The position numbers were made by a program, and so were the translations under genes. A model generated the notes under the pieces. It did no database searches. It was not told the DNA's origin and saw only the letters and a program-made list of their open reading frames with translations. This document shows positions 8,123-63,098 of a stretch of 64,000 nt of DNA, piece by piece. Position 1 is the first letter of the stretch; each line of letters starts with the position of its first letter. The DNA lies in the NCBI RefSeq assembly GCF_001652725.1, contig NZ_LWHJ01000011.1, positions 186,001 to 250,000 on the forward strand, in the 5' to 3' direction. The stretch is from Pedobacter psychrophilus. Its GTDB lineage: Bacteria > Bacteroidota > Bacteroidia > Sphingobacteriales > Sphingobacteriaceae.

Positions 8123-8539
8123 ATGGATAAGATTTTAAATCTCGGCAGGTGGATATTTCCACTTTCTTTTTTAATGTATGTTGGCTTACATTTTGGCAAA
8201 CCAGAAGTTGGAGCAGCCTTTGTCCCAGATTATTTACCATTCCCTTATTTCTGGAACTATTTTACTGCTATTTGTATTCTCGCCTTTATTGTAAGTGCAT
8301 TAATTGGTAAATATGATAAACTTGCTTATACCTTAATGGCTCTTTTTGTGATTTTGATGGCATTAATGGTTCATCTTCCACGCTCTATGGGTTATGAGTT
8401 AGGATTAGAAAACATGACAGAAAGTTTAGCCCGTGAAAAGGAACTTGAAACAGTAAATTTATTTAGAAACATAATGGTAACAGGAGCTTTATTGGCGTTT
8501 GCGAAATTCATCGCTAAAGACAAAAGAATAATTGGTTAA
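8123..8539 (+). CDS. DoxX-like small membrane protein
   Basis: A 138-residue integral membrane protein with about four hydrophobic segments, the first near residues 9-25 and others at about 43-60, 66-85 and 115-128. The opening GRWIFPLSFLMYVGLHF and the YLPFPYFWNYFTAICIL segment fit the DoxX-like family. These proteins are linked to redox or quinone processes in some bacteria, but most are uncharacterised. It lies 11 bp after the YCII gene and is probably on the same transcript. Confidence 0.72.
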   Translation: MDKILNLGRWIFPLSFLMYVGLHFGKPEVGAAFVPDYLPFPYFWNYFTAICILAFIVSALIGKYDKLAYTLMALFVILMALMVHLPRSMGYELGLENMTESLAREKELETVNLFRNIMVTGALLAFAKFIAKDKRIIG

Positions 8540-8556
8540 TCTTAAATATAAATAAT

Positions 8557-8940
8557 ATGCAAAAATTAAGTGCGCAAACCAACGCGTTAAACTGGTTCGA
8601 AATTCCTGCTATTGATATAGCAAGAGCAAAAAACTTTTATGAAACGATTTTTGAAACTCAACTTTTCGAAATGGAAATGATGGGCATGAAGATGGCAGTA
8701 TTCCCCTCTCAAAGCCCACTCGTAGGCGGTGGATTAGCTCAAAGTCCAAATCATAAACCAAGTACAGAAGGAAGCATTGTTTACTTGAATGCAAATCCAG
8801 ATTTGCAAATTGTTTTGGATAAAGTTATTGACGCTGGAGGAATGTTGACAATGCCTAAAACAAACATTGGTGATAATGGCTTTATGGCATTTTTTATTGA
8901 TACTGAGGGAAATTCAGTTGGGGTGCATTCTATGACGTGA
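8557..8940 (+). CDS. VOC (glyoxalase/bleomycin-resistance) family protein
   Basis: A 127-residue protein with the two beta-alpha-beta-beta-beta modules of the vicinal oxygen chelate fold. NWFEIPAIDIARAKNFYETIF opens module one, and GDNGFMAFFIDTEGNSVGVHS closes module two. Candidate metal ligands include E18 in WFEIP and E118 in TEGNSVG. Members include glyoxalases, dioxygenases and antibiotic-binding proteins, so the substrate cannot be told. It is the last gene of the Crp-linked operon, with a hairpin terminator 21 bp downstream. Confidence 0.85.
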   Translation: MQKLSAQTNALNWFEIPAIDIARAKNFYETIFETQLFEMEMMGMKMAVFPSQSPLVGGGLAQSPNHKPSTEGSIVYLNANPDLQIVLDKVIDAGGMLTMPKTNIGDNGFMAFFIDTEGNSVGVHSMT

Positions 8941-10097: not shown

Positions 10098-10430
10098 TTA
10101 GCAGCAGTTTAATTTTTTTGTTGATAGGGCATTAGAAATATTTTCGAAGTAGCTTTTCATTTTATCGATTTCTATTTCATTTATGCAATAGCAAATGGAA
10201 TTTCCTTCGATATTTCCTTTAATTAGATTAGCATTTTTAAGTTCCTTTAAATGTTGAGAAACAGTTGGTTGTGCCAATGGAAGTTCATTCACAATATCGC
10301 CACAAATACAAGTGTCAACGGTCATTAAGTATTCTAAAATGGCTATCCTTGCGGGATGTCCCAATGCTTTTGCAAGGATTGCAATCTCATTTTGCTTGTC
10401 TGTAAAGTGATCAGTTTTTGAAGCTCCCAT
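10098..10430 (-). CDS. arsR: ArsR/SmtB-family repressor
   Basis: A 110-residue winged-helix repressor. The recognition helix region QPTVSQHLKEL spans 54-64. The CIC motif (C41, C43) sits where arsenite-sensing ArsR proteins carry their ELCVCDL-type cysteines, so it probably releases DNA when arsenite binds. Further cysteine pairs occur at 80/82 and at the extreme C-terminus (109/110). It heads the operon. A perfect 14-bp palindrome 12 bp upstream of the start is the likely operator, giving autoregulation. Confidence 0.9.
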   Translation of the reverse strand: MGASKTDHFTDKQNEIAILAKALGHPARIAILEYLMTVDTCICGDIVNELPLAQPTVSQHLKELKNANLIKGNIEGNSICYCINEIEIDKMKSYFENISNALSTKKLNCC

Positions 10431-10442
10431 TTAACTTAATTT

Positions 10443-10456
10443 AATATTGCAATATT
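10443..10456. promoter_or_regulatory. Probable ArsR operator
   Basis: AATATTGCAATATT is a perfect 14-bp palindrome located 12 bp upstream of the arsR start codon, where a repressor would block transcription of arsR, DUF6428 and arsC. ArsR-family sites are commonly AT-rich palindromes of this kind. Confidence 0.6.
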
Positions 10457-10611
10457 ACGATAATAAGTTGTGTTTAAGAATTTTAATCAGTTTATATTTT
10501 CCTCATCATTAAATTTACTTTTTAGCACTTATTACTTAAACTTAGTATTTAAAAACTTAACAAGTTCCAACTCAAATTTTTACCTTTACTCTTTAAGCAT
10601 TCTACAAAAAC

Positions 10612-11559
10612 ATGGCAGAAATTATTTTAGTAATAGGTTCTAACGGACAAATAGGAACGGAATTGGTCACCGAATTACGTAGGATTCACAATGTGAACCA
10701 AGTAGTTGCTTGTGATATTCGTCGCCCCGATTATGATACTAAGAATGCCGGTCCGTTTGAGTTTGTGAATGTTTTAGATAAAGAAAATCTGAAGCAGATT
10801 TTTACAAAATATAAGCCTACACAGGTTTATTTGTTGGCAGCTTTGCTTTCTGCAACAGGCGAGCAAAATCCAAAATTGGCTTGGGATTTAAACATGAATG
10901 GCTTGTTAAACGTTTTAGATTTCGCTATAGATTTTGGCACCAAAAGGGTTTATTGGCCAAGTTCCATTGCTGTTTTTGGGCCGAATTCTCCAAAGCAACA
11001 AACACCACAGTTTTGCACCATGGATCCAAACACAGTTTATGGAATCAGTAAATTAGCAGGTGAACGCTGGTGCGAATATTATTTTCAAAAGTACGGTTTA
11101 GACGTTCGTAGTATTCGTTATCCAGGTTTAATCAGTTGGAAAGCAATGCCAGGCGGCGGAACGACAGATTATGCCATCCATATTTTTCATGAAGCTTTAA
11201 AAAAGGGAAGTTATTCTTCATTTCTTTCTGCAGAAACCGAATTACCAATGATGTATATGGATGATGCCATCCGAGGAACCATAGAATTAATGGATGCACC
11301 AGAAGATAAAATTAATATACGCTCTAGCTATAATTTTGGTGGAGTTAATTTTAATCCAGAAGATTTAGCTTCAGAAATAAAGAAACATATCCCAGATTTT
11401 AAGCTTAATTATACAGCAAATGATCCCCGACAAAAAATAGCTGATAGCTGGCCAAAATCTATTGATGACCAAGTGGCAAAAAAAGACTGGAATTGGCAAC
11501 CAAAATTTGATTTGGAAAAATTAACTTATGAAATGCTTAGAAACTTAAAAAAGAGTTAA
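10612..11559 (+). CDS. L-threonine 3-dehydrogenase, extended-SDR type
   Basis: A 315-residue NAD-dependent enzyme oxidising threonine to 2-amino-3-oxobutyrate, the first step of threonine breakdown to glycine and acetyl-CoA. It is the short-chain dehydrogenase type, unrelated to zinc-dependent Tdh. The NAD-binding GSNGQIG lies at 9-15 and the catalytic YxxxK is Y143/K147. The segments YPGLISWKAMPGGGT, ETELPMMYMDDA and FNPEDLA are characteristic of this family and separate it from sugar epimerases. The partner ketobutyrate-CoA ligase gene is not in the window. A relic of a second copy of the 3' end lies at 12896-12955. Confidence 0.88.
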   Translation: MAEIILVIGSNGQIGTELVTELRRIHNVNQVVACDIRRPDYDTKNAGPFEFVNVLDKENLKQIFTKYKPTQVYLLAALLSATGEQNPKLAWDLNMNGLLNVLDFAIDFGTKRVYWPSSIAVFGPNSPKQQTPQFCTMDPNTVYGISKLAGERWCEYYFQKYGLDVRSIRYPGLISWKAMPGGGTTDYAIHIFHEALKKGSYSSFLSAETELPMMYMDDAIRGTIELMDAPEDKINIRSSYNFGGVNFNPEDLASEIKKHIPDFKLNYTANDPRQKIADSWPKSIDDQVAKKDWNWQPKFDLEKLTYEMLRNLKKS

Positions 11560-11743
11560 GCTATTAAAACCATTTCATCATTAATAAAGTATTGCTGTAG
11601 TTTATATACTTTTTAATGATTTTTCATTTTAAATAAAACAAAGGAATACCTTAGCAATCCTACATTAGCAAAATTTCATTTTGTCTGTAATATTTTTTGA
11701 TTGACGGATACTTATCTAAGCAAAATCTTAAACTTAATTTTTC

Positions 11744-12814
11744 ATGAAAAAAATATTGACAATTGGTTTCCTTTTATTTTTATTGGGAACAGTAAATGCA
11801 CAAAATTTTAGTTGGCAAAAGCTAAATACAGACCCTTATCCTGGTAAGCAAGATGATATTTCCTTTATTGATGAACAAAAAGGTTGGTATGTTAATGGTT
11901 ATGGTGCTATTTATCACACTATTGATGGCGGCCTAACTTGGGCAAAACAGCTGGAGAAAAAAGGAACATTTTTCAGAACCATTGCATTCTTAAATGAAAG
12001 TGTAGGCTTTGCTGGTACTGTAGGAACGGATTATTTCCCAAATGTAACAGATACTATTCCACTATACGGTACAAAGGATGGGGGTAATACTTGGGCTCCT
12101 GTAACTTATAAAGGTAATTATGTTAAGGGTTTATGCGCAATTGATGTAGTGAAAGAACAATATATTAACCATGGTAAAATAGATTTTAAGTACCATGTTT
12201 ATGCAGTGGGCAGGGTAGGTAGCCCAGCAAATATGATGGTTTCTCATGATGCTGGGGAAACATGGATATCCAGCAGTATGGAGGGTAATTGTAAAATGCT
12301 TTTTGATATAAAGATGTTAAATAAGAACCAAGGATTTGCTTGTGCAGCATCTAGCGATGACATTACAACCTCACATGCTGTGATTTTAAAAACAATAGAT
12401 GGTGCAAAAACATGGCAAAAAGTTTATGAATCTGAACGTCCTTTTGAAACTACATGGAAAATAGCTGTTCCTTCAGCTAATGTTGCGTATGTTACCATTC
12501 AATCATATAATCCAGATCCTAATATAAAACAACAAAGAATTGCTAAAACAATAGATGGGGGTAAAACCTGGGTAGAACAAAATCTAGTTGAAGAAAACAG
12601 ATCTAGAGAATTTGGGGTAGGTTTTATAACTGAAAATCACGGATTTGTGGGTACTTATACTGGAGGTTTTGAAACAAAAGATGGTGGGCAAACTTGGCAA
12701 AAAGCAGATTTAGGAATTGCCTGTAATAAAATTAGAATATATAAAACACCAGAAAATAAAACTTACGGTTATGCTATTGGAGTAAATGTTTACAAACTTC
12801 AAAATATGCCATAA
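11744..12814 (+). CDS. Secreted Asp-box (BNR/YCF48-like) beta-propeller protein
   Basis: A 356-residue exported protein with a signal peptide ending near VNAQ (residue 20). Six Asp-box motifs of the S/T-x-D-x-G-x-T-W type recur along it: TIDGGLTW, TKDGGNTW, SHDAGETW, TIDGAKTW, TIDGGKTW and TKDGGQTW. This periodicity indicates a beta-propeller like those of YCF48-related and sialidase-like proteins. No catalytic sialidase residues were recognised, so binding or assembly is more likely than hydrolysis. It is a single gene flanked by the threonine dehydrogenase gene and a fossil of that gene's 3' end, which hints that it arrived by insertion or duplication. Confidence 0.75.
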   Translation: MKKILTIGFLLFLLGTVNAQNFSWQKLNTDPYPGKQDDISFIDEQKGWYVNGYGAIYHTIDGGLTWAKQLEKKGTFFRTIAFLNESVGFAGTVGTDYFPNVTDTIPLYGTKDGGNTWAPVTYKGNYVKGLCAIDVVKEQYINHGKIDFKYHVYAVGRVGSPANMMVSHDAGETWISSSMEGNCKMLFDIKMLNKNQGFACAASSDDITTSHAVILKTIDGAKTWQKVYESERPFETTWKIAVPSANVAYVTIQSYNPDPNIKQQRIAKTIDGGKTWVEQNLVEENRSREFGVGFITENHGFVGTYTGGFETKDGGQTWQKADLGIACNKIRIYKTPENKTYGYAIGVNVYKLQNMP

Positions 12815-52284: not shown

Positions 52285-52641
52285 TTGAAAAAGACAATTC
52301 TTCAGATTTTATTTTTACTGTTTGTTTTGCCAATTTTTGCAAAATCAGCAAACTGTATTATTGATACCGCAATTGTTCAGACTGAAATGTTACCTGATAA
52401 AGGTTATAGCTTAAATCAAATATCAAAGGATAATTCACTAACCTTTAAAGAGACAGATTCGTTAAAAGGTGCTACTTCATATTGGGTGCGTATGCTTATT
52501 TATAATTCTGACAATAACTCAAAAAGATATATCTCAACGGTAGATCCCAATATCAATACCTGTTTATTCACTTTCAATAAAATCAGTAAGAAATGGTTAG
52601 TAAACCCGTCTTTCTGCGCTAATCTTCAAACCAATGTTTGA
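52285..52641 (+). pseudogene. Truncated sensor N-terminus (7TMR-DISMED2 domain)
   Basis: A 118-residue frame from TTG 52285 with a signal peptide (ending FAKSANC) and one domain resembling 7TMR-DISMED2: LTFKETDSLKGATSYWVRMLIYNSDNNSKRYISTVDPNINTCLFTFN. In intact proteins this periplasmic domain is followed by seven membrane helices and a kinase or cyclase. Here it stops and a glycosyltransferase gene begins within 30 bp. It is probably the relic of a sensor kinase cut by recombination, though a secreted stand-alone domain cannot be excluded. Confidence 0.5.
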
Positions 52642-52663
52642 TACATTAAAACTAGAATCCTCC

Positions 52664-53887
52664 ATGAAAAAAAAAGTTTTAATTGATGTAAGAAGAAAGC
52701 TTAATAGTGGTATTGGTAGAGTTACGCAATGGATTGTTGACAACTTAACCGATACTAACCTGATTGAATTCTATTATTTTACTTTCGAAGAAAACATAAT
52801 TAAGTATAATCTAACTGAAAGTAGATGCATAGTCACCAAAGCTAAACCTCTTTCAATCGAAGAAGTTCACGAAACACCAGAGTTAATTCTCAAATACAAC
52901 TTCGATATATATCTAAACCCTCAATTTAATATTTCCCCATTTATTACAACAAAAACGATAACCATATTACATGATTTTTGGTACTTAAAGAGCGAGAAAG
53001 CCCTTCCAACTATTGATGACGTTAGTATTCGCCTTGACTTAAAGGAAGGCAACTACTTTAATGTGATTAACAATTGGTTAACCGAAAAAAATGCGGAAGC
53101 ATTAATGACAACTAATGGACTAATAAAATACAAGCAAGAGAAGGAATTAAAAAATGATGTACTAGATTTGATATGGTCTCAACTGAGTGTTTTTTCATTT
53201 TTTTCAAATTCTATTGTTTTTATTACTGAAGATGTAAAACAAGATTTTGAACGGGTTTTTAAGAAAAAAATTAATTCTACAGTTATATCTAATGGGTACA
53301 ATCATTTTTTTGAAAATGTTCAGTCAAAAACACAAGATATTTTCTTGTGTTTAGCTAAGCTAGAAAAAAGGAAAAACATCTTATTGCTTTTGGAAGCGTA
53401 TGAAATATACTATAAAAAAGCAATTAATCCTGTTGAATTAGTAATAGCTGGAGACAAAGGATATAATAACTATGCTCTTAAGGTGCTATCGAAAATTGAA
53501 GAAATGAATGCTAAAAATATTCCAGTAAGTTTTATAGATTCTGCAAATGATTCTAAAATTAAGGAGCTATTTGAAAAAACTTTGGCATTAATTCTAATTA
53601 GCGAATATGAATCGTTCGGGCTTCCTACAGTTGAAGCTTCATTAGCAGAAATACCTGTAATTACATCTAATAATGGTTATGCTAAGGATTTTTTATCAAA
53701 CGAAACGATAGTTATAAAGGATTTGAATCCAGAAACAGTTGCGAACGCTTTATTGGAAGTACAAAACAACTACCCGTTATACAAAGAGAAAGCGAAGCAG
53801 GCAAAACAAATTGTAATTAAAACATTAGATAATGAGGTACTAAAAGCTAAATGGTACAACTTAATAAGTAATGCAATTGATGAATGA
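52664..53887 (+). CDS. GT4-like glycosyltransferase
   Basis: The ATG at 52664 (MKKKVLIDVRRK) gives 407 residues; an upstream ATG at 52634 overlapping the sensor relic is less likely. The N-terminal GIGRVTQWIVDNL and the C-terminal CLAKLEKRKNILLLLEAYE and SEYESFGLPTVEAS (E-x7-E motif) are those of GT-B retaining enzymes. It should transfer a sugar from a nucleotide donor to a glycan or lipid. Donor and acceptor are unknown. It opens the glycan region of the window. Confidence 0.85.
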   Translation: MKKKVLIDVRRKLNSGIGRVTQWIVDNLTDTNLIEFYYFTFEENIIKYNLTESRCIVTKAKPLSIEEVHETPELILKYNFDIYLNPQFNISPFITTKTITILHDFWYLKSEKALPTIDDVSIRLDLKEGNYFNVINNWLTEKNAEALMTTNGLIKYKQEKELKNDVLDLIWSQLSVFSFFSNSIVFITEDVKQDFERVFKKKINSTVISNGYNHFFENVQSKTQDIFLCLAKLEKRKNILLLLEAYEIYYKKAINPVELVIAGDKGYNNYALKVLSKIEEMNAKNIPVSFIDSANDSKIKELFEKTLALILISEYESFGLPTVEASLAEIPVITSNNGYAKDFLSNETIVIKDLNPETVANALLEVQNNYPLYKEKAKQAKQIVIKTLDNEVLKAKWYNLISNAIDE

Positions 53888-54160
53888 AAATTTATCTAAT
53901 TTTTCATTAGCTCTTATTGTTTATTTCTTAACCATTAACAGTTATTTATTTAATTAGGTTCGGTTGAGGATTTTTAATCGTCTTATCAACTAAAATTTTT
54001 TTGCTAATACCTTAGCTAACTAACCATTAGGTAAATAGGACAGTAGCTGTAAGTTCTCAGATCACAAAATTGATTTATAATAAAATTTTATTTTAATTAA
54101 AACATTTCCCCACTTGCATTTGCTATACTAATTAAATAATTACTTAATTTTATTACAATT

Positions 54161-55180
54161 ATGTTTTCTTTCCAGGTTAATTCTATTCCGTTAAAAGATG
54201 TTATCATTGGTTTAGCAAAATCATTTGAGGTTGAGTATCATCATAGATGCGAGGAATATTTTTTAAATATTCCTGCACATATTGGACATGGACAGATTAG
54301 AGGAATCAATTTCGATAACGGATTGGGACTCATCATTTACAAAGCTGTTTTTAACCAAAACATAAAATTAGAATTCACTTTAGATGAAGTACATCCAGTA
54401 AAGTTTATTTATTCTCTTCATGGTGCCCTTTCTCATCAATTTGCAAATGAAAAAATAAAACATTCGATTGAAGAATATAGGTGTGCAATTGTAGCTAGTG
54501 AGAGAAAAAACGGTCACATTATAGAATTTGAAAAAGATGTACTTCATGAAGTAGTAAGTGTAGAAATTGATCGGGAAACTTTTAGTGTAAAAGAGCGATG
54601 TGAACTTATGTTATGGAGTTCAGAACTTAAAAATGTGCTCACTGATATTGACGGTAAAAAGCAATTTTATCATGTAGACAATTGCGGAATCTACTATAAG
54701 AATATTTTACAAAACGTAGATGAATATAAGAAAGTAGTCATTGCGCATAAGCTCCATTTACAATCTGTGACTTTAGAAATGTTTATTAATCAGATTGTGC
54801 AGTTTGACGATGATGCCTTAAATTCCGATCAGAGAACAATTCTTAGAATTCAGGAATTAAGGAGAATAGAAGAAGCTAGTATTTATATAAGAGAGAATAT
54901 AAACGCAGACCTCTCTGTGAAAAATATTTCACGCAAAACGGGTTTAAATCCTAATAAGCTACAAAACGGATTTAAATATTTGTTCACTACCACCATGAAT
55001 GAATATATTACTAATATTAGATTGGAACAGGCCAAAGTATTGCTGCAAAACAATGAATACAACGTTAGTGCGGTTGTATTAGCCGTTGGATTAGAGAGTA
55101 GCAGTTACTTTTCTAAAATATTTAAGAAAAAGTTTGGTATAACCCCCAAAAAATTTAAGAAATTACATGAATATAATTAG
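54161..55180 (+). CDS. AraC-family transcription regulator
   Basis: A 339-residue protein. The N-terminal 235 residues form an unrecognised effector domain. The C-terminal 100 residues hold two helix-turn-helix units: ADLSVKNISRKTGLNPNKLQNGFKYLF and VSAVVLAVGLESSSYFSKIFKKKFGITPKKF. It stands 148 bp before the acyl-CoA dehydrogenase-PIG-L-methyltransferase operon on the same strand and may regulate it; this is inferred from position only. Confidence 0.88.
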   Translation: MFSFQVNSIPLKDVIIGLAKSFEVEYHHRCEEYFLNIPAHIGHGQIRGINFDNGLGLIIYKAVFNQNIKLEFTLDEVHPVKFIYSLHGALSHQFANEKIKHSIEEYRCAIVASERKNGHIIEFEKDVLHEVVSVEIDRETFSVKERCELMLWSSELKNVLTDIDGKKQFYHVDNCGIYYKNILQNVDEYKKVVIAHKLHLQSVTLEMFINQIVQFDDDALNSDQRTILRIQELRRIEEASIYIRENINADLSVKNISRKTGLNPNKLQNGFKYLFTTTMNEYITNIRLEQAKVLLQNNEYNVSAVVLAVGLESSSYFSKIFKKKFGITPKKFKKLHEYN

Positions 55181-55328
55181 AGCTTTTTTCAAAGTTCTTT
55201 CTACATCAGGCATCTTATTCAATTAAAGAAACAGCTTAATCGCATTAATTTTTAGCGCAATCAATTATATACACGGATTAACTTTACGGTTTTTGTAGAT
55301 TTAAACTTTACATAAAACTTGTTAATTC

Positions 55329-56471
55329 TTGAATAATAATTTAAGCACACAATTTTCTGATTTAATAGCTTCTGCCAAAGACTTTATTCCATTATTATTA
55401 GAAGAAGCTTCAGAAACTGATGCTCCCAATTTGTTTCCAGAAAAATCATTATTGGCAATCAAAGATTCAGACTTTCTAACAGCATGTATTACTTCTGATT
55501 TTGGCGGACGAAATTTGGGTTTACAAGCTGGTTCTAATAGCGCTCTGCTGGAAATTTTACAACTAATTGGTTCTGGAAATTTGGTTTTGGGTCGCGTTTT
55601 GGAAGGACATTTTAACGCACAACTACTCATTAACCAATTTGCGACATCAGAACAAAAAGAGAGGTTTTCTAAAGATGCTTTTGAAGGAAGATTATTTGGC
55701 GTTTGGAATACCCAAGCTGATGATGGTGTTTTCATACAGGATCAAAATGAAACTTATGTTTTACATGGCTCAAAAACTTTTGCTACAGGAACAGGCTATG
55801 TCGCAAGACCTATAGTAACGGCAACAGACAACGATGGTTCGTGGCAAATGTGCATTGTTCCTCTTGACCAAGTTACTGCAATTGTAGATGATAAATGGTG
55901 GAACCCGATGGGAATGAGAGCGACAAGAAGTTATAAAATGAACTTCAATAATATAGTAATTGCTAAAGATAACTTGTTGGGAAATGCTGGAAATTATTAT
56001 CAGCAACCAAGTTTTAGTGGTGGTTCAGTTCGTTTTTCCGCAGTTCAACTGGGCGGCGCTGAAATGATATTCAAAGAGACTGTCAATTACCTAAAAAACT
56101 TAAAAAGAACAGAAGACCAATTTCAAAAAATGCGCATTGGTGAAATGGCGATACTTATTGCATCGGGAAATCAATGGATAAACTCGGCCGCTGTATATCT
56201 GGACAATTACATGAGCGAATCTTCTAGCGAAAATGCCAACCTTTTTTTAAATCAGACCAATATGGTACGTACGGCAATTGATGAGATTTGTACAAAAATT
56301 ATGTCGCTATGCCAAAAATGTATTGGAGCAAGAGGGCTAAATAAACCCTTTCATTTTGAGCGAATCATTCGGGATTTGAATACTTATTTGCGCCAGCCTG
56401 CCCCCGATTATATGTTAATGGAAGTGGGTCGGTTTGCATTTGATAATGCAAATTCAGAAAATGAGCACTAA
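55329..56471 (+). CDS. Acyl-CoA dehydrogenase-like flavoprotein
   Basis: A 380-residue protein from TTG 55329 with the acyl-CoA dehydrogenase fold: helical N-terminus, central beta domain (VWNTQADDGVF, VLHGSKTFATGTGYV, WWNPMGMRATRSYKMNFNNIVI) and helical C-terminus (GARGLNKPFHFERIIRDLNTYLRQPAPDYM). The catalytic glutamate could not be placed with confidence, so it may act on a tethered or unusual substrate. It begins an operon with PIG-L deacetylase (17-bp gap) and NodS-like methyltransferase genes. Confidence 0.85.
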   Translation: MNNNLSTQFSDLIASAKDFIPLLLEEASETDAPNLFPEKSLLAIKDSDFLTACITSDFGGRNLGLQAGSNSALLEILQLIGSGNLVLGRVLEGHFNAQLLINQFATSEQKERFSKDAFEGRLFGVWNTQADDGVFIQDQNETYVLHGSKTFATGTGYVARPIVTATDNDGSWQMCIVPLDQVTAIVDDKWWNPMGMRATRSYKMNFNNIVIAKDNLLGNAGNYYQQPSFSGGSVRFSAVQLGGAEMIFKETVNYLKNLKRTEDQFQKMRIGEMAILIASGNQWINSAAVYLDNYMSESSSENANLFLNQTNMVRTAIDEICTKIMSLCQKCIGARGLNKPFHFERIIRDLNTYLRQPAPDYMLMEVGRFAFDNANSENEH

Positions 56472-56488
56472 AAAGATATATTCTAAAA

Positions 56489-57214
56489 ATGGATAAAATC
56501 GATATAGAAAAGCTTCCAATGTCACCAGAACACTGTGTGAAGGATTTAGGAAAAACTTTAATTGTGGCACCGCATGCAGATGATGAAAGCTTAGGCTGTG
56601 GAGGGGTTATCGCCTTATTAAGAAAATATAATCAGGCAGTCTATATTCTATTGTTGAGCGATGGAACATTATCACATCCAAATAGCTTATTATATCCGAA
56701 GGAAAAATTGCGAAACTTGCGAGAAAACGAAATTTTAAATGCTGCAAAAGTTTTAGATGTGCCTGCCAAGAATGTTATTTTTTGTCGATATAATGACCGT
56801 AATGTTCCAGGTTTAGGAAGTACAAATTTTGAAAGCGCATTAGCTGATATTAACAAAATAATAAATATAATTAATCCACAGAGTATTTTTGTTCCTTGGC
56901 GTAAAGACCCTCATCCTGATCATGTTGCTGCTTATCAATTAGTAAATCATGCAGAAACTTACCATGCAAAAATTTACGAATATCCTATTTGGCTTGATGC
57001 TTTGGGCAAAGCGGAGGATTTTCCTGAAATAAACGCCGTTAGGCCGTTCAAGTTAGATATTTCCAGTATCTTATCTATTAAGCAGGAAGCAATTTCTGCA
57101 CATCAATCGCAAATTTCTAACTTAATTGATGATGATCCAGAAGGTTTCAGAATCTCACAAGTGATGTTGGAAGAGTTTAATAAACCTTACGAAATATTTT
57201 ATATCTCTAAATAA
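56489..57214 (+). CDS. PIG-L family N-acetylglucosamine-type deacetylase
   Basis: A 241-residue zinc hydrolase. APHADDESLGCGG supplies H29 and D32, and H142/H145 lie in DPHPDHVAA, the two zinc motifs of the LmbE/PIG-L family. Family members remove acetyl groups from GlcNAc-containing glycolipids or thiols such as mycothiol and bacillithiol precursors. The substrate here is unknown. The stop overlaps the methyltransferase start in TAATG. Confidence 0.88.
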   Translation: MDKIDIEKLPMSPEHCVKDLGKTLIVAPHADDESLGCGGVIALLRKYNQAVYILLLSDGTLSHPNSLLYPKEKLRNLRENEILNAAKVLDVPAKNVIFCRYNDRNVPGLGSTNFESALADINKIINIINPQSIFVPWRKDPHPDHVAAYQLVNHAETYHAKIYEYPIWLDALGKAEDFPEINAVRPFKLDISSILSIKQEAISAHQSQISNLIDDDPEGFRISQVMLEEFNKPYEIFYISK

Positions 57215-57810
57215 TGTCCTATAAAGAAACACTTAATGCCGACTACTTTGCAAAAGTATATGCTGCAAATGATGATCCTTGGAACTTTGAAACAAGTGTG
57301 TATGAGGCGGAGAAATATGCTTCCACAATAGCTTCATTACCTAAAGAAAATTATGGAGAAATATTGGAAATTGGATGTTCAATTGGCGTATTAACAAAAC
57401 TATTAGCCAAAAAATGCAATCATCTATTGGCTACTGATGTTTCAGAAAAGGCTTTAGAAATCGCTAAGAAAAGATGTAATGATTTAGAAAATATCCAATT
57501 TAAGAACATTAGCTTCCCTGATCAACTCCCGGAGGAAAAATATGATTTAATTGTAGTTTCAGAAGTTGCATATTATTTATCTTCAGCAGATTGGGCTTTG
57601 GCAATTGATAAAATGTATAATATGTTGATGGAAAAAGGGCAAATCGCTTTGATACACTGGTTGCCAGAAGTTCATGACTATCCTCAAACCGGGGATGAAG
57701 TTCATTATTTATTTGCTGATGAAATTAGTGAAAAAATGGTAAATGTATTTAATAGCCGAGCAGAAAAATACAGAATTGATATCTGGGAAAAAGTTAATCG
57801 GAATAATTAG
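57214..57810 (+). CDS. NodS-like SAM-dependent methyltransferase
   Basis: A 198-residue class I methyltransferase. The opening DYFAKVYAANDDPWNFETSVYEAEKY is characteristic of the NodS group, which N-methylates chitooligosaccharide lipids in rhizobia. LEIGCSIGVLT (46-56) is SAM motif I. After a deacetylase, N-methylation of the freed amine is a natural next step, as in Nod factor synthesis; here it is inference. The 3' end overlaps the convergent GT2 gene by 17 bases. Confidence 0.85.
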   Translation: MSYKETLNADYFAKVYAANDDPWNFETSVYEAEKYASTIASLPKENYGEILEIGCSIGVLTKLLAKKCNHLLATDVSEKALEIAKKRCNDLENIQFKNISFPDQLPEEKYDLIVVSEVAYYLSSADWALAIDKMYNMLMEKGQIALIHWLPEVHDYPQTGDEVHYLFADEISEKMVNVFNSRAEKYRIDIWEKVNRNN

Positions 57811-58948
57811 AAATACTTTCTTTTAATTTTAATATTGCTGTATTTATTGGGCTTGATGCATACATTTCATTCCAATGTATTTCGTTCAAAATCTTAATTT
57901 CATTGAACCATTCGCCATAATAACTGACTGCATAATTTTTTAAAATGCTATCGTCAAAAATAATATGCTTATCAATCTTTTCAAGTTCTGATATCACAAG
58001 TAGATAATTATTTTCTTTTTTATTCCATAAATCTCTTATTTTCCTCTTTATGATAAGCCTATTTACTAATGATTCACAAGATTCGACCAAAAAATTACTT
58101 TCTATCATTTCCATATTTTTCCAAACAAGCAGTTGATTAGCAAGTCCCACATCTGCTCTACCGCAGTACCTCGCAGAAGTATGTACTTTTACCCGGTTAC
58201 TATGTCTGATTTTAGCATCAACAGATTCTAATTTTTCATAGAAAGCACAATCTTCCAGATGCTTTACATGAGGTACTCCACCTGCTGTTTGATAGCAGAT
58301 AGATGTTACTGCAAAACTCCCATTAAAGTGCTGATGATGGCATGGTTTTCCGAAATCGAAATTTTTTAAAATCATCGAAGCTAACTCGGCGGCTAGAAGT
58401 TGATATTCTTCATCTTTTTTATGGAATAAAGATATGGAGGAATCTAGCACCACTGACTCTTCCTCATTAAATAAAATCCGTCCTCCAACAGCATCTGCTC
58501 CGTTATTAATTTCGCAAATATTCTGGTAAATCCAATCCCTTGAAACAACAGTATCACTATCGGTTGTCATTATAATTCCTCCACCGTTTTTACACAACCT
58601 GGAATAGGCGATATCCATCAAAGTTTTTCGAACGAAACCAATATTAGCATGCTCCTCTTCAAGTATGATATCTTCCACATGTATATTTAAAGATGAATTT
58701 TCTTCTTTAAACTGCTGAATGATACAAACACTATGATCAGTACAATTATTAGCAATAATCAAGATTTCGAAAATTTTCTTATTTAGTTCAAGGCCCTCAT
58801 CATTTATTTGGTTAAGAAAAGCAGCTAAACAATCCTTAATATACCTTTCTTCATTTTTCACTGGGATTACAATAGAAACTTTTACCTCTGATAGGATTGG
58901 AACTTGCGAGAATAGAATTGAAGGGTCTGTTGGGAGGTATTTTTTCAT
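57794..58948 (-). CDS. GT2-family glycosyltransferase
   Basis: A 384-residue GT-A enzyme. KVSIVIPVKNEERYIKDCLAAFL is the N-terminal nucleotide-binding strand, and TTDSDTVV is the metal-binding DxD. The C-terminal 130 residues lack a family match. No membrane helices are seen, so it works on the cytoplasmic face. It converges on the methyltransferase gene and is separated from the ferritin-like gene by a terminator. Confidence 0.85.
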   Translation of the reverse strand: MKKYLPTDPSILFSQVPILSEVKVSIVIPVKNEERYIKDCLAAFLNQINDEGLELNKKIFEILIIANNCTDHSVCIIQQFKEENSSLNIHVEDIILEEEHANIGFVRKTLMDIAYSRLCKNGGGIIMTTDSDTVVSRDWIYQNICEINNGADAVGGRILFNEEESVVLDSSISLFHKKDEEYQLLAAELASMILKNFDFGKPCHHQHFNGSFAVTSICYQTAGGVPHVKHLEDCAFYEKLESVDAKIRHSNRVKVHTSARYCGRADVGLANQLLVWKNMEMIESNFLVESCESLVNRLIIKRKIRDLWNKKENNYLLVISELEKIDKHIIFDDSILKNYAVSYYGEWFNEIKILNEIHWNEMYASSPINTAILKLKESISNYSD

Positions 58949-58965
58949 TGACGGAGCATTTATAA

Positions 58966-58990
58966 AAAAGCGGCTATAAAGCCGCTTTTA
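58966..58990 (-). terminator. Intrinsic terminator of the DUF892 gene
   Basis: AAAAGCGGCT and AGCCGCTTTT form a perfect stem with a four-base loop, just after the DUF892 stop on the reverse strand, and with a T run in that direction. Confidence 0.85.
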
Positions 58991-58993
58991 ATA

Positions 58994-59524
58994 TTATTTA
59001 GCCTTTAAATTAATTTCCGTATTGGCAAGTTTTGTGAGATCTATATCACATTTTTTTTCTTCATCAAGTGTCGCTCCTAATAATTTATGAACTTCGTTTT
59101 CACCTAAGAGTTTGGCATAGGTAGCCATAGTACCATATGAAGCAATTTCGTAATGCTCTATTTTTTGCGCCGCTGCAATTATTGCTGCATCTCTAATTGC
59201 TCCCGGTTCGGTTTCTTCCATAATGCTTTCTGCTTCCTTCAGCAATCCATCCATTGCATCGCATTTTTCAGCTTTTGGTTTTTCATCCATCGCTTTAAAT
59301 GCATCTTCTAATCTGATAATCTGATTTTGCGTTTCATCCAAATGTTTCTTAATTGCCTCTTGCAATTTTGAAGAAGTTGCGTTTTTAGCCATTTTAGGTA
59401 AATTTTTTACCAACGCTTTTTCTGCCCAGTATAAATCCTTAAGACCATCTACCAGAAAATCTCTTAAATCTTCTGCAGCATCTTTTTTTGGTTTAATTTT
59501 CCCTGTTTCTGTTTGCTTTGCCAT
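58994..59524 (-). CDS. DUF892 ferritin-like protein (YciE/YciF family)
   Basis: A 176-residue helical protein. LRDFLVDGLKDLYWAEKALVKNLPKMAKNAT opens the ferritin-like bundle, and MEETEPGAIRDAAIIAAAQKIEHYEIASYGTMATYAKLLGE carries the glutamate and histidine metal ligands. YciF-type proteins are induced by osmotic and general stress. The N-terminus is lysine-rich (KQTETGKIKPKKDA). It is a single gene inside the glycan region. Confidence 0.88.
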   Translation of the reverse strand: MAKQTETGKIKPKKDAAEDLRDFLVDGLKDLYWAEKALVKNLPKMAKNATSSKLQEAIKKHLDETQNQIIRLEDAFKAMDEKPKAEKCDAMDGLLKEAESIMEETEPGAIRDAAIIAAAQKIEHYEIASYGTMATYAKLLGENEVHKLLGATLDEEKKCDIDLTKLANTEINLKAK

Positions 59525-59774
59525 AGTTTTAATGTTTTTAATTTTAATTAATTTTTTTTTTTAAGAAGAAACATTTTCATAATTTCTCTTTTCTAAAGCG
59601 GTTCAATTTATTATGGTCTATAAAATCTCGCCATTTTATAAAGTAAAGCCTTTTTCATTTTCAATTATATATCGCAAGGAAGATTAATCCATTTGCATCT
59701 TTAATAATTTTTTTAAGGGCATTTTTACTTTCTTTAAACGGCTAATTTTACACGATTAAAAAAGCATCTACACT

Positions 59775-60857
59775 ATGAACATATTAGCTAAAAAAGATTT
59801 TCACTCTTCTTACGATGTGATTGTTTTTTGCCACTTACGTTGGGATTTTGTTTACCAGCGACCTCAACATCTAATTACCAGATTATCAAATGATTTTAAA
59901 ATTTTGGTTATTGAAGAACCCGTGGGAAAGGGAGATGGATCAGAAAGAGGTTTTAAAATATCAGATAATATACATGTTTTACAACCCACCATTGACAATA
60001 TTGAAGACCTTGGAAGTTTTTTAAAGGATATATTAGAAACAAAAGTATTTCCGGTAGGTTGGTTCTATTCGCCAGCATTTGTGAATGTGTTAAATTATTT
60101 AAATTTCTCTGCTATAGTTTATGATTGTATGGATGAACTTTCGCTTTTTAAAGGCGCTTCTCAAAAACTAATAGAACAAGAAAAGAACTTATTATCCGCA
60201 GCAGATATCGTTTTTACAGGAGGAAAATCGCTTTATGAAGCGAAAAAAGAAAAGCATAGCAATGTTTTTTGTTTTCCTAGTTCGGTAGATCAAGAACATT
60301 TCAATCTGGGTAATAAAAGTTTAGAATTGCCATCAGATATCGACTCAATACCAAAACCAATTGTTGGTTACTATGGAGTTATCGATGAAAGAATTAATCT
60401 GAATTTATTGCAAATGAGTGCTCAAAAAATGCCGGATATTTCTTTTGTGATGATTGGACCAATCTGTAAAATTGAAGAACAAGATTTACCATGGGCAGCA
60501 AATATTTTTTATCTCGGAATGAAAACTTACGAAGAGCTTCCAGTTTATTTAAATGAATTTGATTATGCAATGATGCCTTTTGCATTAAACGACGCCACTA
60601 AATTTATCAGCCCTACAAAAACCTTGGAATACATGTGCGCCATGAAACCTATCATTTCAACTAAAATTAAAGACGTTGAAAGGGATTATAGTCATTGTAT
60701 TCAACTTATAGATGATGAGAATGATTTCTTTAATGCAATCCACCAAACCAAAGCTGATTTTAAAGATGCTTATCTGGAAATTTTACAAAATACCTCATGG
60801 GATAGAACTGCTGCAAAAATGTCTCAAATAATTAATGGAATAAAAGAATTAGCATGA
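59775..60857 (+). CDS. GT-B glycosyltransferase of the UGM cluster
   Basis: A 360-residue glycosyltransferase. The motif HLRWDFVYQRPQHLITRLS near the N-terminus is typical of a GT1/GT4-like group found beside UDP-galactopyranose mutase, and SPTKTLEYMCAMKPIISTKIKDV is the donor-binding region. It may add the sugar made by the mutase; this is inference. Its stop overlaps the glf start in ATGA. Confidence 0.8.
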   Translation: MNILAKKDFHSSYDVIVFCHLRWDFVYQRPQHLITRLSNDFKILVIEEPVGKGDGSERGFKISDNIHVLQPTIDNIEDLGSFLKDILETKVFPVGWFYSPAFVNVLNYLNFSAIVYDCMDELSLFKGASQKLIEQEKNLLSAADIVFTGGKSLYEAKKEKHSNVFCFPSSVDQEHFNLGNKSLELPSDIDSIPKPIVGYYGVIDERINLNLLQMSAQKMPDISFVMIGPICKIEEQDLPWAANIFYLGMKTYEELPVYLNEFDYAMMPFALNDATKFISPTKTLEYMCAMKPIISTKIKDVERDYSHCIQLIDDENDFFNAIHQTKADFKDAYLEILQNTSWDRTAAKMSQIINGIKELA

Positions 60858-61996
60858 CCGATTATGATATTTTAATTATTGGCGCCGGAATTTCTGGGGC
60901 TGTGCTTGCCGAACAATATGCATCTGCAGGGAAACGGGTTTTGATTATCGAAAAACGAAACCACATTGCAGGAAACTGTTTTGATTTTTATGATGAAAAC
61001 GAAATACTAACCTCTAAATACGGTGCCCATCTTTTCCATACCAATGATGAAGGGGTGTGGAATTATGTAAATCAATTTGCAGATTGGTACACTTGGGAAC
61101 ATAAAGTAGTAGCAAAAGTAGATAACCATTTAGTTCCAATACCAGTAAATATTACTACTGTTAACACTTTGTTTAACGAGAACTTATCTTCAGAATTAGA
61201 AATGAGAGAATGGCTTTCTAATAATAGGATATCTTACAATTCACCAAAAAATGGAGAAGAGGCAGTTTTAAATCGTGTGGGTAAAGTTTTATACGATAAA
61301 ATGTTTAAGCATTATACAAAAAAGCAATGGGACAAATATCCTTCAGAATTACATGCTTCAGTTTTGGAACGCATCCCAGTAAGGGACAATTACGATGACC
61401 GCTACTTTTCTGATGTTCATCAAGCATTGCCAAAAGGCGGATATACAAAGATGTTCAAGAACATATTAAATCACCCAAATATTACTGTACTGCTAAATAC
61501 AGACTATTTCGAAGTTGAAGGTGAAATTGGCGGATATGAAAAGCTATTTTACACAGGCCCTATTGATCGTTTCTTTACTTTTAATGCAAACCTGACAGAA
61601 AAACTAGAATACCGATCCATCAACTTTGTTAGAGAAGAAATTGATCAGGAATTTTTCCAGCAAAATTCGGTAGTGAATTATCCTGGAAATGAAGTTGAGT
61701 TTACACGGATTGTTGAATATAAGCATTTCGGAAACCAACAATCAGCCACAACCAGCATTGTTAAAGAATACACAATTGACGAGGGAGAACCATATTATCC
61801 AGTTCCTAACGAACAAAATCAAGAAATTTACGCTAAATATAAAACCGAAGCAGATAAATTACTAAACGTGTATTTTGTTGGAAGATTGGCAAATTATAAA
61901 TATTTTAATATGGATCAGGCATTTAGAAATGCCTTAAATCTTTTCAAAAGTTTAGAAGTAGATGTTGTAGAACAAGAATATGCAAAATCCGTTTAG
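60854..61996 (+). CDS. glf: UDP-galactopyranose mutase
   Basis: A 380-residue flavoenzyme converting UDP-galactopyranose to UDP-galactofuranose. The FAD-binding DILIIGAGISGAVLAEQYA and EKRNHIAGNCFDFYD are intact, followed by GAHLFHTNDEGVWNYVNQF, KHYTKKQWDKYPSEL and FVGRLANYKYFNMDQAFRNAL. Galactofuranose is then available for cell-surface glycans. It overlaps the upstream glycosyltransferase by four bases and the downstream hydrolase by 17. Confidence 0.96.
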   Translation: MTDYDILIIGAGISGAVLAEQYASAGKRVLIIEKRNHIAGNCFDFYDENEILTSKYGAHLFHTNDEGVWNYVNQFADWYTWEHKVVAKVDNHLVPIPVNITTVNTLFNENLSSELEMREWLSNNRISYNSPKNGEEAVLNRVGKVLYDKMFKHYTKKQWDKYPSELHASVLERIPVRDNYDDRYFSDVHQALPKGGYTKMFKNILNHPNITVLLNTDYFEVEGEIGGYEKLFYTGPIDRFFTFNANLTEKLEYRSINFVREEIDQEFFQQNSVVNYPGNEVEFTRIVEYKHFGNQQSATTSIVKEYTIDEGEPYYPVPNEQNQEIYAKYKTEADKLLNVYFVGRLANYKYFNMDQAFRNALNLFKSLEVDVVEQEYAKSV

Positions 61997-63098
61997 TTCA
62001 TTTTTCTTAGGTGGTTTCGAGTGTGCGGATCAAATTAATCGTTCAGGAGAACGGGTTAACTTATTAGAAATTACACAGCATCATTTAAGGGTAGAAGAGG
62101 ATTATCAGCTTTTATTAGATATTGGAATAACCTCAGTGCGAGAAGGAATTTGCTGGAGTTCAATAGAAACTAGCCCGGGATTATTTGATTTTAATGAGGT
62201 ATTGAACCGAATTAAAATTGGCGAGAAATTGGGAATTCAACAAATTTGGGACATGATTCATTTTGGCTATCCAGATGACTTGTTTCCAACGCACCCTAAA
62301 TTTTGCTCCCGTTTCACTAACTTGTGTATTGAATTTGTTAGGTTTTATAATCAACATTCCTTGCAACCACTTCTTATTATCCCTATCAATGAAATCAGCT
62401 TTTTATCTTGGTTTTCTGGAGATGTAAGGGGTACCGTTCCGTTTTTAGAGAAGAGCGGTTGGGATATGAAGTATCATCTTTGCAAAGCAGCGATACTTGC
62501 AATCAAAGCTATTAGAGAAGAGAGTCCGTTAGCTAAGATAATTTTAGTAGAACCTCTTGTTAAAGTTCATCAAAACGGCATATTATCAGCAGAAGAGTTG
62601 CAAAAAATTAATGAATACCAATTTGAAGCAGTAGATATTATTAAAGGCAGACTATGCCCAGAATTGGGTGGAAATAACATGCTTTTTGATATATTAGGCA
62701 TTAATTATTATTGGAATTGCCAATGGGTTGAAGGTGGCGAAACAGTATATTGGCCAGATATTTTGAAAGTTAGGGTTCCTCTGAGACAATTGCTAAAAGA
62801 ATCTTATTTACGATATAATAAACCCATTTTCATTTCTGAAACAGGGCATTTTGGACAAGGTAGGGTTGAATGGCTAGAAGAAATTTCAGAAGAATGCTTA
62901 GCTATAAAACAAGCCGGAATTCCTTTTTTTGGCATTTGCATTTATCCTGTTACAGATCGCCCGGATTGGGACAATCTTTTAGATTATAGTAATTGTGGTA
63001 TTTTTGATTTGGATGCTATCGGAAATAGAATTCCTCATATAGAATATATTGAATCGCTAAAAGTGCAACAGATTAAATTTAAAGATATAGAGATTTGA
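61980..63098 (+). CDS. Clan GH-A (GH1-like) glycoside hydrolase
   Basis: A 372-residue TIM-barrel protein. The likely acid/base is E138 in PINEIS and the nucleophile E287 in ISETGH, the order and spacing of clan GH-A enzymes. GGFECADQINRSGERVN opens the barrel. It has no signal peptide, so it acts in the cytoplasm. Its tight overlap with glf suggests editing, transglycosylation or trimming of a galactofuranose-related glycan; that is inference. Confidence 0.77.
   Translation: MQNPFSSFFLGGFECADQINRSGERVNLLEITQHHLRVEEDYQLLLDIGITSVREGICWSSIETSPGLFDFNEVLNRIKIGEKLGIQQIWDMIHFGYPDDLFPTHPKFCSRFTNLCIEFVRFYNQHSLQPLLIIPINEISFLSWFSGDVRGTVPFLEKSGWDMKYHLCKAAILAIKAIREESPLAKIILVEPLVKVHQNGILSAEELQKINEYQFEAVDIIKGRLCPELGGNNMLFDILGINYYWNCQWVEGGETVYWPDILKVRVPLRQLLKESYLRYNKPIFISETGHFGQGRVEWLEEISEECLAIKQAGIPFFGICIYPVTDRPDWDNLLDYSNCGIFDLDAIGNRIPHIEYIESLKVQQIKFKDIEI

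Follow-up and report, generated by a model that had tools for sequence, protein, structure and literature searches.

The 64,000-nucleotide stretch of Pedobacter psychrophilus DNA analysed here (contig NZ_LWHJ01000011.1, positions 186,001 to 250,000; hereafter the window) carries, at positions 55329-58948, adjoining genes for a flavoprotein of the acyl-CoA dehydrogenase (ACAD) fold, a PIG-L deacetylase, a methyltransferase (MT) of the NodS family and a GT2 glycosyltransferase. These four genes are a real cassette, found as one block in at least five phyla. The conservation of the set, its gene order, its fusions, its horizontal transfer and the missing catalytic residues of the ACAD-fold protein were computed directly. 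On balance we favour the view that the cassette is a mobile cytosolic pathway to a modified amino-sugar compound used to survive general stress or drying, a reading in which we infer the substrates, the order of steps, the product and the role.

Conservation of the four-gene cassette

The first-pass annotation had guessed that the gene set recurs in unrelated bacteria, and the co-occurrence search bore this out, as the cassette is kept across genera and phyla. A profile search of GTDB genomes for the MT (with a replacement alignment, the first being too diverse) gave 80 loci. Those in Bacteroidota are from Kaistella, Chryseobacterium, Hymenobacter, Spirosoma, Dyadobacter, Lewinella, Mucilaginibacter and Pedobacter, and the others from cyanobacteria, Methylobacterium, Chloroflexi, Acidobacteria and Verrucomicrobia. 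Matches on plasmids added further taxa: Deinococcus, Komagataeibacter, Sulfitobacter, Paracoccus, Novosphingobium, Bradyrhizobium, Acinetobacter, Pandoraea and Rubrobacter. Around the MT, local hidden Markov models (HMMs) found the ACAD gene in 92 of 97 loci, GT2 in 86 and PIG-L in 85. All four genes occur together in Bacteroidota, Cyanobacteria, Deinococcota, Chloroflexota and Proteobacteria; the set lacks PIG-L in Rubrobacter (Actinomycetota) and in one Verrucomicrobia metagenome-assembled genome.

As the 97 loci had been picked by an MT or PIG-L match, an unselected test was made on Bacteroidota genomes. The MT profile was found in 8 genomes of an even draw of 392, and the ACAD profile in the identical 8 (p 8e-17 in a naive Fisher test, which ignores shared ancestry). 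In all eight, which represent six genera, the four genes adjoin.

The order ACAD, PIG-L, MT, with GT2 facing the MT, is the commonest in Bacteroidota and is also that of most cyanobacteria and of Komagataeibacter. GT2 is collinear with the other genes and downstream of them in Sulfitobacter, Paracoccus and Acinetobacter, and collinear and upstream in most Methylobacterium. Members of the set are also fused: PIG-L and MT form a single protein in locus L035 (451 aa) and in Lewinella, Neolewinella, Mucilaginibacter and Pedobacter, and GT2 and ACAD share one open reading frame (ORF) in Methylobacterium aquaticum. An apparent MT fusion of 801 aa in L036 was rejected, being an ORF call past a stop or from an early start; overlong PIG-L and MT calls in other loci arose in the same way.

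Some copies are interrupted or carry additional neighbours. In Deinococcus, a TnpB gene lies between ACAD and PIG-L (L041, 7825-9177) and a DEAD/DEAH helicase gene between PIG-L and MT (L137, 4246-6858). In L036, from a lichen Sphingobacteriaceae, the gene inserted between MT and GT2 (10650-12458) encodes a membrane protein of 602 aa that looks, by eye, like a channel of the MscS type. A nonribosomal peptide synthetase of the Pls/PosA family (about 1320 aa) adjoins the cassette in the Mucilaginibacter-type loci L035, L036 and L038, exceeding the TIGR02353 cut-off in L036, and a partial homologue occurs in two Nostoc loci (L104 and L108). Only named families were used in comparing neighbours, as high-GC loci were rich in spurious ORFs and taxon-specific neighbours.

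The features of the window are as follows.

54161-55180, + strand: AraC-family regulator (Pfam HTH_18, 9e-18), directly 5' of the cassette and co-directional with it
55249-55264, + strand: 16-bp element TTTTTAGCGCAATCAA, candidate operator or promoter element, between the AraC and ACAD genes
55329-56471, + strand: ACAD-fold flavoprotein, TTG start (PF00441, 2e-7; PF08028, 3e-6; both weak)
56489-57214, + strand: PIG-L/LmbE zinc de-N-acetylase (PF02585, 1.9e-27)
57214-57810, + strand: NodS-family S-adenosylmethionine-dependent MT, predicted N-methyltransferase (PF05401 NodS, 1e-21)
57794-58948, - strand: soluble GT2 glycosyltransferase (PF00535, 1.6e-13), convergent with the MT gene
58994-59524, - strand: DUF892 (YciF-type) protein, associated stress gene (PF05974, 2e-54)
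59775-60857, + strand: TuaH-like GT4-fold glycosyltransferase, second module (NCBIfam TuaH, 7e-21, below cut-off)
60854-61996, + strand: glf, UDP-galactopyranose mutase (TIGR00031, 341 bits, over cut-off)
61980-63098, + strand: GH1-like (clan GH-A) glycosidase-fold protein (conserved NE138 and E287; GH1 profile match)

A gap of 17 bp separates the ACAD and PIG-L genes, the PIG-L and MT genes touch, and the MT and GT2 genes overlap tail to tail by 17 bp. All four genes were re-located with Pfam where the first-pass annotation had placed and named them, and the AraC-type regulator and glf are present as it claimed. It had not mentioned the strand change at GT2 or the TuaH-like, DUF892 and GH1-like genes, which recur with the set.

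Predicted activities of the four proteins

The flavoprotein profile has DszC as its best PDB match (1e-34, 123 bits), followed by methanesulfinate monooxygenase (4e-32), the best ACAD scoring 97 bits. The top fold match of its model (pLDDT 88) is the FMN-dependent TdsC, with ACADs close behind. Neither catalytic glutamate of the acyl-CoA dehydrogenases is present, both positions having been counted by eye and not superposed: the site of E376 in medium-chain acyl-CoA dehydrogenase, counted from the RD anchor, falls at P357 in an invariant RDLxxYLRQPAPD, and that of E254 in isovaleryl-CoA dehydrogenase at an invariant G232. The protein thus does not qualify as a catalytic acyl-CoA dehydrogenase and has the similarity of a group D enzyme of the DszC/MsuC type. 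The loss of both glutamates, along with the likeness to DszC, MsuC and TdsC, favours oxygenation or another flavin oxidation over acyl-CoA dehydrogenation. From sequence and model, a flavin monooxygenase or oxidase of the DszC/MsuC kind is the probable identity. The same features disfavour an acyl-CoA dehydrogenase acting as lipid desaturase, and no acyltransferase is conserved with the cassette; the lipid-related step proposed in the first-pass annotation is therefore doubtful. The group D flavin monooxygenases DszC/TdsC and MsuC and the nitrososynthases KijD3/DnmZ resemble the flavoprotein in fold and as best profile and structure matches, but identity to them is only about 20% and the cassette provides no reductase partner, except for a ferredoxin-reductase-like gene in Rubrobacter.

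PIG-L scores 96.8 bits with PF02585 (cut-off 28.2), and its zinc motifs (AHPDDE-type and HPDH) are invariant at P28, H29, D31, D32, E33, H142, D144 and H145. The best PDB match of its profile is diacetylchitobiose deacetylase (4e-24), followed by BshB, MshB and glycopeptide deacetylases. BshB1 was considered for the window protein and rejected (61-62 bits with TIGR04001, cut-off 182.5); the true BshB1 of this genome is elsewhere, at C31, and exceeds the cut-off with 270 bits. In Rubrobacter, a gene for a NodB-like CE4 deacetylase lies just upstream of ACAD and there is no PIG-L at the locus. The replacement of PIG-L by CE4 there, and the existence of proteins combining GT2, MT and CE4 (see below), support deacetylation as a step of the pathway. 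The Methylobacterium loci without PIG-L belong to genomes with a cassette-grade PIG-L elsewhere (265-275 bits).

The best matches of the MT profile are the uncharacterised 4isc (1e-52) and then NodS (3ofj, 2e-29). With 78 bits against a PF05401 cut-off of 24, the MT lies within the wider NodS family, and it shares the signature DPW...E...LE(I)GC with NodS; it fails the NodS equivalog model NF041650 (83 bits vs 300). Rhizobial NodS, used as a query on plasmids, has cassette MTs and trifunctional proteins among its best non-NodS matches, and a small unrooted tree groups NodS and the trifunctional MTs among the cassette MTs (support 0.89). These trifunctional proteins, of about 1000 aa, combine GT2, a NodS-family MT and CE4, and were observed on plasmids of R. 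leguminosarum (L132, 5378-8380) and Sulfitobacter (S. indolifex; L133, 5423-8503), near ABC transporter, glycosyltransferase and polysaccharide genes. They resemble the cassette in joining GT2, a NodS-type MT and a deacetylase, here in one protein, and differ from it in the CE4 type of that deacetylase, the lack of ACAD and the setting among transporter and glycosyltransferase genes. Since one protein holds all three, these three activities belong together.

The GT2 protein has an invariant DxD (D130, D132) and ED (E232, D233) and is modelled as a soluble GT-A fold (pLDDT 90); the fold search returned generic GT-A matches alone, with no clue to the donor.

The rhizobial Nod factor genes nodC-nodB-nodS likewise provide a GT2-type transferase, an N-deacetylase and a NodS-superfamily MT. 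Unlike the cassette, they include a CE4 NodB, a membrane NodC and NodA, whereas the cassette has PIG-L (except in Rubrobacter), a soluble GT2 and an additional flavoprotein, and lacks any nodulation context. As the first-pass annotation had said, there is no NodA acyltransferase or NodC chitin synthase among window genes 52634-63098, as searched by family; neither recurs among the neighbours in short clusters examined by eye. Of its comparison with Nod factor assembly, the deacetylase, the NodS-type MT and the GT2 hold, while the lipid step is not supported; the linked genes suggest stress survival and not a Nod-like signal. The cassette is not a Nod system, having no NodA or NodC, an MT below the NodS cut-off and no supported lipid step; its probable mode of action is that of the deacetylase and methyltransferase steps in making Nod factors.

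Second module, horizontal transfer and stress genes

The TuaH-like glycosyltransferase, glf and the GH1-like protein form a second module, which only some hosts have as part of the pathway. The TuaH-like gene has homologues in 8 other loci and adjoins the cassette in 7 of these; glf has homologues in 5 others plus L144. TuaH-like, glf and GH genes adjoin the cassette in Kaistella, Chryseobacterium and Epilithonimonas, and partly in Spirosoma and D. gobiensis. L144 (genome G339) has GLF, GH, GT2, ACAD, PIG-L and MT in this order, in one direction and with overlapping ORFs, and in three Deinococcus loci (L041, L050 and L137) a GH1-like protein is fused to ACAD. The GH1-like protein matches GH1 beta-glucosidases by profile (1e-16) and has the residues of GH clan A, the acid/base pair NE (N137, E138) and the nucleophile E287 (ET) being invariant in 8 sequences.

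Of the genomes sampled from the same family, none of 17 congeners has a cassette-grade PIG-L and just 5 of the remaining ones do, at 34-48% identity. In a tree of ACAD, PIG-L and MT, the window pairs with Kaistella antarctica (Flavobacteriia; support 1.0), nested in the Chryseobacterium group and apart from the other Sphingobacteriaceae. The window copy, being sister to that of K. antarctica, has therefore moved horizontally. For most of the locus the two share 70-76% of their DNA sequence, and an AraC-family gene, 74% identical, occupies the same place in K. antarctica (L052). The 16-bp element TTTTTAGCSCAATCAA at 55249-55264 also recurs there (L052, 8039-8054), the rest of the AraC-ACAD intergenic region having diverged between these two sequences, the only ones compared; searches for further copies gave chance-level matches alone. 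Another Sphingobacteriaceae genome (G034, locus L040) has a PIG-L remnant at 10319-10555, with a stop codon and 58% identity over 52 aa, lying between TuaH-like/glf and GH genes. L040 is likely a decayed cassette whose second module was kept.

Genes linked to stress are found near the cassette in several taxa. A long catalase gene is nearby in Sulfitobacter, Novosphingobium, Paracoccus and Kaistella, where it lies between GT2 and DUF892, a place without catalase in the window. The locus sequence, 1.75 Mb long, holds four long catalases, more than the 0.3-0.4 expected at about one per genome (the number in the window genome), but three of the four loci are alphaproteobacterial and perhaps not independent. 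DUF892 is beside the cassette in three cases (the window, Kaistella and Paracoccus), Ku/LigD is nearby in Bradyrhizobium, CsbD in Pandoraea and trehalose-6-phosphate synthase (otsA) in Acinetobacter soli. In Methylobacterium L099, an ORF for a stand-alone LigD 3'-phosphoesterase (8338-8835) separates GT2 and ACAD, with similar matches there in four other Methylobacterium loci. Genes for BLUF photoreceptors are found near the cassette in Acinetobacter (blsA; PMC6240043) and Bradyrhizobium (L048, 1977-2408), and a link of the cassette to light is possible.

Expression data come from A. baumannii, in which the operon ACICU_02432-02435 is down 31-62 fold in colistin-dependent mutants, along with otsA, otsB and catalase ACICU_01426 (PMC5660220). 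This operon adjoins the DUF2171 gene A1S_2230/ACICU_02436 (PMC6330354), which is 98.7% identical to the DUF2171 gene that L134 has upstream of its four genes, in divergent orientation; ACICU_02432-02435 is therefore the same cassette. The operon (PMC5660220), beside blsA (PMC6240043), is made up of the same four families as the window, with HMM homologues in L134, and differs in that all four genes are collinear, including a short GT2 (214 aa), and that it is listed only in expression and gene-map data. Among the desiccation factors of A. baumannii are KatE and the DtpC-KatE operon (PMC6181384, PMC13232832). Stress genes beside the cassette in unrelated taxa, together with co-expression in A. 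baumannii, therefore support a putative stress role, most strongly for Acinetobacter.

Proposed pathway and alternatives

In the pathway that we favour, GT2 would place an N-acetylhexosamine on an acceptor, PIG-L would remove the acetyl group and free the amine, and the NodS-type MT would N-methylate it, each activity being that expected of the family. The flavoprotein would oxidise the product (by N- or C-oxygenation or dehydrogenation), and not a fatty acyl-CoA. In some hosts, that of the window among them, the TuaH-like transferase would add galactofuranose from the UDP-galactofuranose made by glf, and the GH1-like protein may trim or rearrange the product. This product might be a small glycoside, a glycolipid or an oligosaccharide end group; as the first-pass annotation had stated, the literature found names none for the set. 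Several observations weigh against this pathway. Methylation by an MT of the NodS superfamily could fall on O or on a different N, no solved structure is close to the GT2 model, and Spirosoma L081, Verrucomicrobia L077 and Chloroflexi L083 have neither a cassette PIG-L at the locus nor a copy of comparable score genome-wide. As for the stress role, the Acinetobacter expression data are those of colistin-dependent mutants of one species and not of a drying experiment, and most copies in Hymenobacter have the same chromosomal surroundings, in which no stress gene was recognised.

The cassette might instead decorate a capsule or exopolysaccharide with a side group of N-deacetylated, N-methylated hexosamine, with glf and the TuaH-like protein supplying galactofuranose. 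The presence of these two neighbours in a subset, the extra glycosyltransferases of the Novosphingobium and Paracoccus loci and the polysaccharide setting of the trifunctional proteins would fit, but no Wzx/Wzy, ABC exporter or polymerase recurs across taxa in the neighbour clusters (examined by eye) and most taxa have the four genes by themselves, which makes this unlikely. Along the lines of the Nod factor comparison in the first-pass annotation, much the same tool set, with an MT related to NodS, could make a signal of the lipo-chitooligosaccharide or glycolipid kind, with the ACAD desaturating the acyl chain. This is very improbable, given the lack of a conserved NodA-type acyltransferase or NodC-type membrane chitin synthase, a GT2 modelled as soluble GT-A, a flavoprotein without either glutamate and nearest DszC/MsuC, and hosts that are free-living bacteria of many phyla.

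We give an equally small chance to a thiol or thiol-like redox buffer of low molecular weight, a further modified analogue of mycothiol or bacillithiol. In the synthesis of these thiols (BshA-BshB, MshA-MshB) a PIG-L enzyme also acts after a glycosyltransferase, and catalase and oxidative stress genes are near the cassette. Unlike the cassette, those pathways use GT4 and not GT2 and have no MT or flavoprotein; the window genome has its separate BshB1, whose model the window PIG-L scores poorly, and no cysteine ligase (MshC/BshC) recurs with the cassette in the neighbour clusters, again by eye.

A bolder extension of the favoured amino-sugar pathway, which we regard as doubtful, would have an N-methylated, flavoenzyme-oxidised amino-sugar glycoside as a new stress metabolite common to desiccation- and radiation-tolerant bacteria (Deinococcus, Hymenobacter, Spirosoma, Methylobacterium, Nostoc, Rubrobacter and Acinetobacter), and rhizobial NodS as recruited from a cassette MT. 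In any case, the relationship to NodS bears on the origin of Nod factor chemistry. Bacteroidota, Cyanobacteria, Deinococcus and Acinetobacter all keep the pathway, several times with fused members, so its product must be of use to them; if the stress link is true, protectants such as trehalose and thiols would be joined by a new class.

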